37,896 bases of DNA, from NCBI GenBank assembly GCA_903896045.1, contig CAITWD010000015.1:1-37896 (forward strand), in the 5' to 3' direction. Position numbers and translations under genes: made by a program. Source of the stretch: an uncultured Actinomycetes bacterium. Lineage in GTDB: Bacteria > Actinomycetota > Thermoleophilia > Miltoncostaeales > Miltoncostaeaceae. The notes below the pieces were generated by a model, which saw nothing but the letters and a program-made list of their open reading frames with translations, was not told where the DNA came from and did no database searches. Within the stretch, counting starts at the first letter, position 1. Each line of letters starts with the position of its first letter. Below, in pieces: positions 6,311 through 10,870 of this stretch.

Positions 6311-6787
6311 CTAATGGGGGTACGGGTGCCCCTGCAAGACGCACAGGGCACGATAGAGCTGCTCGGTCAGCACGACTCGCGCAAGCTGATGCGGCATCGT
6401 GAGCGGACCGAGCGACATCTGCTCATCACAGCTTTTGCGCAATTCCCCATCGATACCGCTTGCTCCTCCAATAATCATCGCAACGGGCCGCCCCGAGGAC
6501 AATCGACGCTCGAGCCACTCGGCAAATGCCACACTTGATGCCGGTTGCGCACCTGTTGGGTCAAGGCACACCGTCCATGCATTCCGTGCGAGCCGCACAC
6601 GCATCCGTTCCGCCTCCGCGCTACGTGCAGCTGCCTCGCCCCGCTGCAACGGCTCCGCCGCGACCTCATCGCTACGAAAACTGGTCATGTGCGAGAGTCG
6701 CCGCTCGTACTCACGGCCTGCGGCATCATGGGGCGGGCGAAGCGTCCCAACGCACAGAATCTGGATAGCTGGCGATTTCACCGACAC
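6311..6787 (-). CDS. rlmH: 23S rRNA (pseudouridine1915-N3)-methyltransferase RlmH
   Basis: 158 residues, the normal RlmH length. It is a SPOUT-class enzyme that methylates pseudouridine 1915 of 23S rRNA in assembled ribosomes, using SAM. The knotted C-terminal half is well conserved: MIIGGASGID (SAM site), then MSLGPLTMPHQLARVVLTEQLYRA in two parts, and the terminal HPYPH. The start is a GTG at 6787 with GGGAG seven bases before it. It precedes argS by 18 bases, so both are likely one translation-related transcript. Confidence 0.95.
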   Translation of the reverse strand: MSVKSPAIQILCVGTLRPPHDAAGREYERRLSHMTSFRSDEVAAEPLQRGEAAARSAEAERMRVRLARNAWTVCLDPTGAQPASSVAFAEWLERRLSSGRPVAMIIGGASGIDGELRKSCDEQMSLGPLTMPHQLARVVLTEQLYRALCVLQGHPYPH

Positions 6788-7059
6788 GTCGGAGCTCCCT
6801 CGGGGTGCGTTCTGCGATCTCGCATGGGCGCGCGCATCATGACAAAGACCAATCCTGCACGCGATGGAGGGTTGGTAGCGTCGCTCTCTTTCATGCGCAC
6901 CTCCTCTCCACCACGGACCACCTCCCCTGTCGGGAACACGTTCATCAATGGTGCAGGTGGCGCTCTGCGGGTATCTTCTGGGTCACTGGTTGCAATGACC
7001 CATATCGCGACCTTCGGTGCAGGAAACGAGGCATGCACAATGATGCGATCCATGATCAC
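6778..7059 (-). CDS. Possible small protein upstream of rlmH (unknown)
   Basis: A 93-codon frame begins with GTG at 7059, with AGGAAGG ten bases before it, and ends overlapping the rlmH start by ten bases. I recognise no family. The C-terminal part is Met/Arg-rich (GLVFVMMR, MRDRR). Codon use is not decisive. It fills most of the 305-base gap between rlmH and the divergent desulfurase-like gene; the alternative is that this gap is only a divergent promoter region. An inverted repeat GGGTCA/TGACCC (6980-6985, 6996-7001) also lies here. Confidence 0.28.
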   Translation of the reverse strand: MIMDRIIVHASFPAPKVAIWVIATSDPEDTRRAPPAPLMNVFPTGEVVRGGEEVRMKESDATNPPSRAGLVFVMMRAPMRDRRTHPEGAPTCR

Positions 7060-7092
7060 CGCGCACACCCCTTCCTCGGAGGCGGGGGTCTC

Positions 7093-8259
7093 GTGAGCGG
7101 CGGCGAGATCTATCTCGATCACGCGACAAGCTCCCCACTCGCCCCAGAGGTCACTGCGGCAATCACCGATGCGCTGCGCCTGACCGCAAGCCCCGACTCC
7201 GTCCATCCACGCGGCGCAGCCACCGCTGTCGCCGTGTCCACTGCACGGGCGCAACTGGCCGACTTGATCGGCGCCGAACCCGAAGAGATTATCTTCACTG
7301 CAGGTGCGACCGAAGCCCGCAATCTGGCGGTCAAAGGTCTCCTCTCGGCGAACGCCGACATCGGCACCCATGTGGTGACGAGCGAAATTGAACACCCGGC
7401 AGTGCTCTCGGCCGTCCGCTCCCATATCCGTGCGGGCAAGACGGCGTCATTTGTCGGAGTGGACTCACACGGATACATCAGTCCTGTCGCATTCGCGCGA
7501 GCCGTCACTGACGCAACGTCCGTCGCAAGCATCCATCACGCCCAATACGAAATTGGGACAATCCAGGATGTTCCGACGATCGCCGAGGCGATTCGTGATG
7601 CACACGCACCGACACGAATTCATCTCGACGCAAGCGACAGCATTGGCATCCTTCATTGCGATGTGTCTGCACTTGGTGTCGACGCGGTCAGCATCAGCGG
7701 TACGCCAATCGGGGCACCCGCGTGGACAGGCGCGCTTTGGGTTCGACCCGGTGCACGCCTCCACCCCCTAATTGAAGGGGGTGCCCAAGAATTCGGAAAG
7801 CGTGCCGGCGCCGTCGATGTCGCGGGAATTATCGGCCTGGGTGTTGCGGCAGCACGTCGTCAAACTGATTTAGCGACCCATGCACGCCAACTTCGCCGTC
7901 ACACGGAGATGCTCAGCAGCACGCTGATGGGTATTGGTGATGTACGACGCAATGGGCCGGAACCCGCGACTCGCCTCCCAGGGCACCTGCAGATATCTGT
8001 CGCGGGAATGACCGGCGAAAGTCTCGCCTTGGCCCTGGCAACCCGCGGCGTCTTGGTCGCGCCCGGATCGACATGTACCGCTGACGCTGGGAAAGCTTCG
8101 CCGACGCTCGAGGCCATTGGATGCTCCCCGGAATGGACGCATTCGGCCATCCTCATCACGATTGGCGCAACCACAACCGATGATGAGATTGCGCGTGCTG
8201 GCTTCATTATCGAAGCCGCGATTCGGGAACTACGCGCCATGAGCCCACTCTCGCAATGA
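7093..8259 (+). CDS. Cysteine desulfurase (NifS/IscS) homologue lacking the PLP lysine
   Basis: 388 residues from a GTG at 7093, with GGAGG ten bases before it. The fold-type I aminotransferase pattern of NifS/IscS is clear: IYLDHATSSP at the start, GATEARNLA, TSEIEHPAV (His101), HAQYEIGTIQ, HLDAS (Asp179), GGAQEFGKRAG, and the persulfide-loop GSTCTADAG with Cys328. However the segment that should read SGHK, with the lysine that forms the PLP Schiff base, reads SGTP (residues 202-205), and the conserved Gln after the Asp is also replaced (DASD). The C-terminal RxSLG motif is weakened to ITIG. The reading frame is intact, so this is a divergent protein rather than a broken gene. Its stop overlaps the start of a TusA-like gene (ATGA). 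Normal enzymes of this family take sulfur from cysteine; whether this one can is doubtful. Confidence 0.85.
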   Translation: MSGGEIYLDHATSSPLAPEVTAAITDALRLTASPDSVHPRGAATAVAVSTARAQLADLIGAEPEEIIFTAGATEARNLAVKGLLSANADIGTHVVTSEIEHPAVLSAVRSHIRAGKTASFVGVDSHGYISPVAFARAVTDATSVASIHHAQYEIGTIQDVPTIAEAIRDAHAPTRIHLDASDSIGILHCDVSALGVDAVSISGTPIGAPAWTGALWVRPGARLHPLIEGGAQEFGKRAGAVDVAGIIGLGVAAARRQTDLATHARQLRRHTEMLSSTLMGIGDVRRNGPEPATRLPGHLQISVAGMTGESLALALATRGVLVAPGSTCTADAGKASPTLEAIGCSPEWTHSAILITIGATTTDDEIARAGFIIEAAIRELRAMSPLSQ

Positions 8260-8513
8260 CCACCACACGCATCATCGATGCGCTCGGGACCCATTGCCCG
8301 GTCCCCGTCACGCTCCTGGCCGCCGCTATCGCACGCGCAGGCGTCCCGACGTTATTTCAGGTACTCGCGGATGACCCGATGGTCACGATCGATATCCCCG
8401 CTTGGTGCCATTCATACGGACACGAGCTTCTGAGCTGCACCGAGACGAACGGCCAATGGACTGCGATGGTGGCATTCACTCCGGTATCTGCTTCGGCCGA
8501 CTCCTCCGCCTGA
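8256..8513 (+). CDS. TusA/SirA-family sulfur carrier protein
   Basis: 85 residues. The N-terminus carries the TusA signature D-A-L-G-x-x-C-P-x-P (Asp8 to Pro17), where Cys14 would carry a persulfide. The rest fits the small beta-alpha-beta-alpha fold (FQVLADDPMVTIDIPAWC, then SYGHELLS). TusA proteins accept sulfur from a cysteine desulfurase and pass it on, for example to tRNA thiolation. The gene overlaps the desulfurase-like gene by four bases, so the two proteins are made together and probably act together. A second Cys at about residue 51 is not part of the usual motif. The ultimate sulfur acceptor is not in this window. Confidence 0.85.
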   Translation: MTTTRIIDALGTHCPVPVTLLAAAIARAGVPTLFQVLADDPMVTIDIPAWCHSYGHELLSCTETNGQWTAMVAFTPVSASADSSA

Positions 8514-9361: not shown

Positions 9362-10870
9362 CTAGATGCCGTCAGTGATCAACATGCGCCCGGTCATCTG
9401 GCGGGGGATGTCCCAGCCCATCATCCCGGCGACGGTGGGCCCAACATCGCCGAGGGCACCAGAGGTAAGCGACAACCCGGGGCGATCGATCCACAGCGGC
9501 ACTGGATTAATTGTATGTGCGGTATTTGGCGATCCATCGGGCTCGCGCATTGCTTCGCTATTGCCATGGTCGGCGGTCACGACAAGTAATCCATTGCGCG
9601 CATGCACCGCAGCACGGATATCGGCCATGCAGCGATCAACCGTCTCGATGCCCTCGACCGCTGCGGCCACAACACCGGTGTGTCCGACCATATCGGCGTT
9701 GGCAAAATTGACCACGATAAATTCGTACGGCTTCGCAAGCCCTGCAATGACCGCATCCCGTACACCTGTGGCGCTCATCGCAGGCGCCTGATCGTAGGTC
9801 GCGACATCTTGTGGGGATTGCACAAGCACCCGATCTTCCCCATCAAATGGCGCCTCACGGCCGCCATTAAAGAAAAATGTCACATGGGCGTACTTCTCAG
9901 TCTCTGCCACATGCAACTGGCGACGACCCGCACCACTCACCGCCTCGGCAAGGCCTTGACGCACATCATCTGCGTCAAAGAGCACGGGAATGTCCCACTC
10001 GCGCTTGTACCGGGTCATCGAAACGAAATGGATGCGGGGGGGACTCCCGGCCCGATCAAAACCATGAAATTCACGCTGCGTAAGGGCTTGGGTGAGTTGG
10101 CGTGCGCGATCGGGGCGAAAATTGAAATACACCACTGCATCGCCATCTTTGATGCGACCAACCATTGGATCACCAATAACGGTTGCGGGAATGAACTCAT
10201 CCCCGACTCCCGCGTCATAGGCGGCGCGCACTGCAGCGACCGCGGACGTAGCATGTTGGTCTGCAACGCCTCGCACCATCGCCAGATATGCGGCTTGGGT
10301 ACGTAGCCAGCGCTGATCACGGTCCATCGCAAGATAACGACCGCACACGCTCGCAATCGGGACGCGTGCCTCAATCGCGGTGATCGCCGCAAGTGCCGCA
10401 TCGGGTCGCGTATCGCGCCCGTCGGTAAACGCGTGGACATAGATGCGCTCGACACCCGCCTGCCGGGCAATGTCAATCAATGCCATCAGGTGACGCGATG
10501 CGGCATGCACCCCTCCGTCACCGACAAGACCAACCAGATGCAGTGCGCGTTCGCGACCAACACGCAGCGCACCTTCAAGCACCGGATTCCTTGCGAGAAT
10601 CCCGGAGGAAATTGCCTCATCGATGCGCACCAGCATCTGCGGCACGCGTCGACCCGCCCCAAGATTGAGATGGCCAACCTCAGAATTGCCCTGCTGCCCT
10701 GCGGGCAAGCCCACATCGAGCCCCGATGCGATCAATTGGCCCGCCGATCCCTCGCGGGCGAGTGCGTCAAGCGCCGGGGTACGGGCGATCTCGACCGCAT
10801 TGCCAGGGCCGGGCGGCGCGATACCGAATCCATCAATCACGACGAGGACCAACGGCCCGCGTGTGCTCAC
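9362..10870 (-). CDS. gpmI: 2,3-bisphosphoglycerate-independent phosphoglycerate mutase
   Basis: 502 residues; interconverts 3- and 2-phosphoglycerate in the cytoplasm. Alkaline-phosphatase-superfamily metal and catalytic motifs are present: Asp13 in VVIDGFG, the phosphoserine Ser63 in GNSEVGH, FTDGRDT (phosphate binding), and the C-terminal VTADHGNSE. Length is typical for GpmI. The GTG start overlaps the tpiA stop in GTGA, so it is the last gene of gap-pgk-tpiA-gpmI. No good terminator is visible in the 190 bases after it. Confidence 0.97.
   Translation of the reverse strand: MSTRGPLVLVVIDGFGIAPPGPGNAVEIARTPALDALAREGSAGQLIASGLDVGLPAGQQGNSEVGHLNLGAGRRVPQMLVRIDEAISSGILARNPVLEGALRVGRERALHLVGLVGDGGVHAASRHLMALIDIARQAGVERIYVHAFTDGRDTRPDAALAAITAIEARVPIASVCGRYLAMDRDQRWLRTQAAYLAMVRGVADQHATSAVAAVRAAYDAGVGDEFIPATVIGDPMVGRIKDGDAVVYFNFRPDRARQLTQALTQREFHGFDRAGSPPRIHFVSMTRYKREWDIPVLFDADDVRQGLAEAVSGAGRRQLHVAETEKYAHVTFFFNGGREAPFDGEDRVLVQSPQDVATYDQAPAMSATGVRDAVIAGLAKPYEFIVVNFANADMVGHTGVVAAAVEGIETVDRCMADIRAAVHARNGLLVVTADHGNSEAMREPDGSPNTAHTINPVPLWIDRPGLSLTSGALGDVGPTVAGMMGWDIPRQMTGRMLITDGI

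Follow-up and report, generated by a model that had tools for sequence, protein, structure and literature searches.

A conserved IscS-like pseudo-desulfurase, probably PLP-independent, encoded beside TusA in Miltoncostaeales

Sulfur enters cofactors and tRNA by way of cysteine desulfurases. An IscS/NifS-like gene without the codon for the Schiff-base lysine lies in the window, a stretch of 37,896 nucleotides from an uncultured Actinomycetes bacterium (contig CAITWD010000015.1) whose genome is 1.67 Mb and 99.85% complete. This raises the question of whether the product can still be a desulfurase and, if not, what its persulfide cysteine may do. The first-pass annotation had described an intact frame with SGTP at residues 202–205, His101 and Cys328, coupled to a TusA-like carrier with an intact Cys-Pro-x-Pro motif. 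The sequence read agreed with this description throughout.

The IscS-like gene and its TusA neighbour

The reading frame is unbroken from the GTG at 7093 to the TGA at 8259. The gene and its neighbours are as follows.

6311..6787, − strand: RlmH, divergent conserved neighbour, used as a synteny marker
7078..7082, + strand: GGAGG, ribosome-binding-like site ahead of GTG 7093 (read from the sequence)
7093..8259, + strand: IscS/NifS-like protein lacking the Schiff-base lysine (388 aa, GTG start)
8256..8513, + strand: TusA-like sulfur carrier (85 aa), in ATGA overlap with the preceding IscS-like gene (Pfam TusA PF01206, 5e-16)
8295..8306, + strand: Cys14-Pro-Val-Pro (CPVP), the TusA active motif (Cys14, Pro15 and Pro17 invariant)
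9362..10870, − strand: GpmI, conserved downstream neighbour, used as a synteny marker

The product of 7093–8259 matched Pfam Aminotran_5 (5.3e-51). The NCBIfam NifS/IscS models matched it with scores far under their curated cut-offs. The AlphaFold model of the 388-aa protein had a pLDDT of 93.2 and a pTM of 0.92, and the only segment with a pLDDT below 50 was residues 329–331 of the Cys loop. The top fold matches in the PDB (Foldseek, TM approximately 0.9) were Nfs1, E. coli IscS, E. coli IscS–TusA and Archaeoglobus fulgidus (A. fulgidus) IscS, including an entry titled 'D199K mutant'. In fold and sequence homology the product is therefore an IscS protein.

The downstream gene belongs to the TusA family by both its motif and its family match, and Cys14, Asp40 and Asp46 are invariant in the TusA proteins of the clade. 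It is the only TusA in the window's genome. One strong TusA match per genome was found in this bacterial family, with a second, weak match in a few genomes. The first-pass annotation had suggested looking for homologues beside TusA. TusA was the next gene after the Lys-less IscS (IscS*) in all 28 loci whose sequence reaches that far, and the gene order ArgRS-RlmH-IscS*-TusA-GpmI-TpiA-Pgk-Gap was largely conserved. A metallophosphoesterase gene often precedes IscS* in relatives and is absent from the window (6788–7092). An open frame rich in Gly-Pro-x repeats (collagen-like) lies at the window edge (130–495).

Residues lost, kept and gained in the Miltoncostaeales clade

We aligned 28 Miltoncostaeales orthologues with 21 Lys-bearing (K-type) IscS relatives. 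Residue numbers are those of the 388-aa window protein unless marked E. coli. The E. coli equivalents (His104, Asn155, Asp180, Gln183, His205, Lys206, Thr243 and Arg356) and their roles are presumed from the K-type alignment and general knowledge of IscS.

7393..7395, + strand: His101, kept (E. coli His104; 27/28)
7543..7548, + strand: Gln151-Tyr152, replacing the PLP-site Asn-Asn (Asn151 in 21/21 K-type, Gln in 26/28 of the clade)
7627..7629, + strand: Asp179, kept (pyridine-N Asp180 of E. coli; 28/28)
7636..7638, + strand: Asp182, replacing E. coli Gln183, the Gln after the active Asp (alignment)
7696..7707, + strand: SGTP at residues 202–205 where SGHK is expected; the Lys206 position is Pro205 (alignment)
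7798..7800, + strand: Lys236, clade-conserved (Lys 26/28, Arg 2/28); matched by eye to E. coli Met239, on the loop carrying the phosphate Thr243
7810..7812, + strand: Ala240, replacing the phosphate-binding Thr243 of E. coli (Thr in 21/21 K-type; clade A13 P11 S2 H1 E1)
8074..8076, + strand: Cys328, the persulfide cysteine, kept (28/28)
8089..8094, + strand: Gly333-Lys334 on the mobile Cys loop, clade-invariant (28/28; Cys-loop pattern scan of approximately 85,000 species)
8152..8154, + strand: Leu354, replacing the substrate-carboxylate Arg (E. coli Arg356; Arg in 21/21 K-type, Leu in 28/28 of the clade)

The Schiff-base lysine of the S-G/A-H-K box is missing from the whole alignment of the clade. 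Position 205 was Lys in 21 of the 21 K-type proteins and in none of the 28 orthologues (A8 S8 T7 P4 C1). A misread SGHK, which the first-pass annotation had named as a possible refutation, was thus not seen. Its claim that the lysine was lost and that the Gln after the active Asp was changed held, with Asp182 following Asp179. The idea of an isolated oddity did not hold, since Asn151/152, Ser202, His204 (mostly Arg or Pro; E. coli His205), Thr240 and Arg354 are also replaced and the state is shared by 28 orthologues. The substrate-carboxylate arginine is missing throughout the clade.

Other parts of the protein have been kept. Glu74 is retained and Thr73 mostly so, and the PGSxC...GK loop with Cys328 ranks among the best-conserved stretches. 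The persulfide cysteine still sits on a mobile loop, the one with the low-pLDDT segment. The residues new to the clade are Arg76, Gln151, Trp211, Lys236, Pro324, Gly333-Lys334 and Leu354; some Lys206-bearing IscS proteins likewise have lysine at 236 and at 334. The C-terminus ends 0–7 residues past the SP motif, whereas most K-type proteins, and most of a second Lys-less group described below (D-type), have a tail that contains Tyr or Trp. K-type proteins beside IscU carry residues after the SP motif that are missing from the clade.

A search of the order Miltoncostaeales (class Thermoleophilia) gave a match in 42/42 genomes. The best match was merely SufS-level in six of them (G015, G018, G021, G026, G032 and G065), where the gene is missing or partial; we put this down to incomplete assemblies. 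The order name of relatives found in the scan of approximately 85,000 species rests on contig titles (Miltoncostaeaceae, Miltoncostaeales, Thermoleophilia). The HK pair was kept in all four relatives outside the order that had the searched Cys-loop patterns. Three contigs titled Bifidobacterium breve or Acidobacteria (L072, L077 and L084) have Miltoncostaeales-like sequence and synteny, and their record names look wrong.

In the tree, a branch with support 100 set the clade apart, and the stem of the clade was long (0.7–0.9 changes per site). The dN/dS of close pairs was 0.13–0.31, which indicates purifying selection; that of the neighbouring ArgRS was somewhat lower (0.06–0.24). The 28 aligned orthologues and the dN/dS values rule out a sequencing error or a lone pseudogene. 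An in-frame TGA was reported in several orthologues; in the two that were read out it was the normal stop, overrun by the local match. Our literature searches found no description of a Lys-less clade in Miltoncostaeales.

A possible persulfide relay and its alternatives

We conclude that the clade protein is a conserved pseudo-desulfurase, probably PLP-independent. L-cysteine desulfuration by it is very unlikely, because it has lost its contacts to PLP, to the phosphate and to the substrate while Cys328 remains. In the explanation that we propose, the Miltoncostaeales IscS became PLP-independent and retained the frame of fold type I and the mobile loop that bears Cys328. It would form no aldimine and hold no L-cysteine. 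The persulfide on Cys328 would instead be supplied by a different donor, which may be SufS/SufU, a rhodanese or a low-molecular persulfide, and would then pass to Cys14 of TusA, the product of the adjoining gene, within an IscS–TusA-like complex. The new Gly-Lys of the Cys loop and Lys236 may serve docking or stabilise the persulfide. We infer that the protein lacks PLP, is a dimer, joins this complex, draws on such a donor and transfers sulfur. Taken whole, we hold this relay to be slightly short of an even chance.

Candidate donors are present in the genomes. The window's genome encodes a Lys-bearing SufS (FTGHKMLGP) and SufU. A Lys-bearing SufS was also read out in a second Miltoncostaeales genome (G014); apart from these two, SufS was seen in the rest of the order as SufS-level weaker matches in the same search. 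Rhodanese-domain matches occurred at three places in the window's genome. A true IscU (E approximately 1e-50, beside IscS in other families) was not found in the genomes of the order that were searched, and the NifU_N matches in them were a SufU encoded next to SufS and an MnmA fusion with a SufU-like domain. The fusion in the window's genome (L100:973-2457, G000:C1, outside the window) is a 494-aa MnmA with an N-terminal SufU/NifU-like domain, and many Thermoleophilia have the same layout. Sulfur for tRNA thiolation may come through this fusion straight from SufS. A further class-V aminotransferase, whose lysine is intact (PAQKWLLGP), is encoded at L103:1946-3097 (G000:C18).

We counted in favour of the relay the loss of Lys and Arg with Cys328 kept, the branch support of 100, the dN/dS, the constancy of TusA, the fold, the presence of SufS, and the missing IscU and C-terminal tail. 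Against it we counted that the TusA-docking residues of E. coli IscS are not conserved and that DsrE-type (TusBCD) family proteins gave no match in the window's genome. The docking residues (Trp45, Glu49 and Asp52) are conserved neither in the clade nor in the K-type proteins of the class. We rejected them as a test of an IscS*–TusA complex, since they vary in the K-type too.

The main rival is a chemically dead IscS, retained so that TusA, and perhaps SufS, can dock on it or be regulated by it, while no sulfur moves through the protein. The erosion of the PLP and substrate residues and the constant pairing with TusA agree with this, and a pure docking or regulatory role would keep most of the features listed above. 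It would less easily keep an invariant Cys328, which lies with its loop among the best-conserved parts of the protein, and Cys14 of TusA is invariant as well. We consider such a platform possible but rather unlikely. It is improbable that the protein works as A. fulgidus IscS does, with Cys328 binding or assisting an Fe-S cluster built on an IscU/SufU-type scaffold. A. fulgidus IscS, which lacks the same lysine and shows Leu in the substrate-Arg column of the alignment, contributes a cysteine that ligates the IscU-bound cluster (PMC7585200). However, no true IscU was found in the genomes of the order that were searched, just the SufU next to SufS and the SufU-like domain of the MnmA fusion. 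The clade also lacks C-terminal residues near the region of IscS that E. coli IscU contacts (PMC2854127).

A PLP enzyme with altered chemistry, whose Schiff base would be made by a different lysine, either K334 on the Cys loop or the K236 of the adjacent subunit, is disfavoured, and we give it a low probability. Each of these lysines is new to the clade and almost invariant in it, and the Cys loop of IscS-type proteins shuttles between the pocket and the partner (PMC2854127). Against this, the phosphate ligands His205/Thr243, the ring ligands and the substrate Arg were lost together. We did not take Lys236 and Lys334 to prove that the Schiff base has moved, since both positions are Lys in some Lys206-bearing proteins. 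The least probable reading is that the former PLP pocket binds another ligand in a new function with TusA. Arg76, Gln151, Trp211, Lys236 and Lys334 are new and invariant or nearly so after the long stem, but no search pointed to a ligand, and Lys236 and Lys334 align with the side of the Cys loop and partner, not with the pocket.

The first-pass annotation had offered two readings. The non-enzymatic relay or scaffold is now better supported, because across the order the contacts for PLP and substrate have disappeared but Cys328 and the pairing with TusA have not. A desulfurase with changed chemistry has been weakened, because the Arg for the cysteine carboxylate is lost and the genome has a Lys-bearing SufS. 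If the relay is true, a family that drops PLP chemistry and keeps the persulfide Cys and TusA separates 'making' from 'passing' a persulfide in one fold. Lys-less IscS proteins have so far been described in a few archaea, and the clade offers a bacterial case for testing what they do. The annotation 'cysteine desulfurase' of such genes is probably wrong.

Comparison with other Lys-less and Lys-bearing systems

A second Lys-less group, the D-type, was found in other families of Thermoleophilia (L115, L124–L126 and L130–L146). It shares with the Miltoncostaeales clade the missing Schiff-base Lys and an adjoining TusA (17/17 loci, L130–L146). TusA was found beside K-type IscS in 0/8 loci outside family f6 and in 3/3 loci in f6. 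Unlike the clade, the D-type has an SxND box (Lys to Asp), with S-N-D as in A. fulgidus, and adjoins IscU where this was looked up (G042, G047 and G052); several of those genomes contain a K-type IscS as well. Its best PDB match was A. fulgidus IscS (E 5e-129). The best tree split the clade from the D-type, and a joint clade, with the lysine lost once, was not rejected (AU p 0.118 and 0.345). More tentatively than the relay itself, we suggest that the whole order exchanged a catalytic IscS for a PLP-independent one that carries persulfide to TusA from SufS or a different donor, and that Lys-less IscS/TusA is a recurrent module that also occurs as the D-type.

Among known systems, E. coli IscS–TusA (PDB 3LVJ) resembles the locus in fold (TM approximately 0.9) and in the partner pair. 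E. coli IscS, however, is a PLP enzyme with Lys206, and its TusA-docking residues differ from those of the clade. Methanosarcina acetivorans IscS1 is another IscS homologue without the catalytic lysine (PMC7585200); it differs in being archaeal and clustered with IscU1.

The closest precedent is A. fulgidus IscS (PDB 4EB5, 4HVK and 4R5F), in which the lysine is replaced by Asp199 and which works with IscU; the 'D199K mutant' is named in a PDB title. The first-pass annotation had made no mention of it. A. fulgidus IscS and the clade protein both have the IscS fold without the Schiff-base Lys, have lost Gln183, carry Leu at the substrate-Arg column and keep the Cys loop. Of the A. fulgidus-type traits, the absence of Lys is found in the clade, whereas no SxND box occurs in it and no IscU partner gene was found in the genomes of the order that were searched. 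A. fulgidus IscS retains the Asn-Asn-Glu motif, a Ser at the phosphate-loop Thr, an SSND box and IscU as its partner. The Miltoncostaeales clade has SGTP, GGPA or GGRS in the box, mostly Ala or Pro at the phosphate Thr, and TusA as its partner gene in place of a true IscU.
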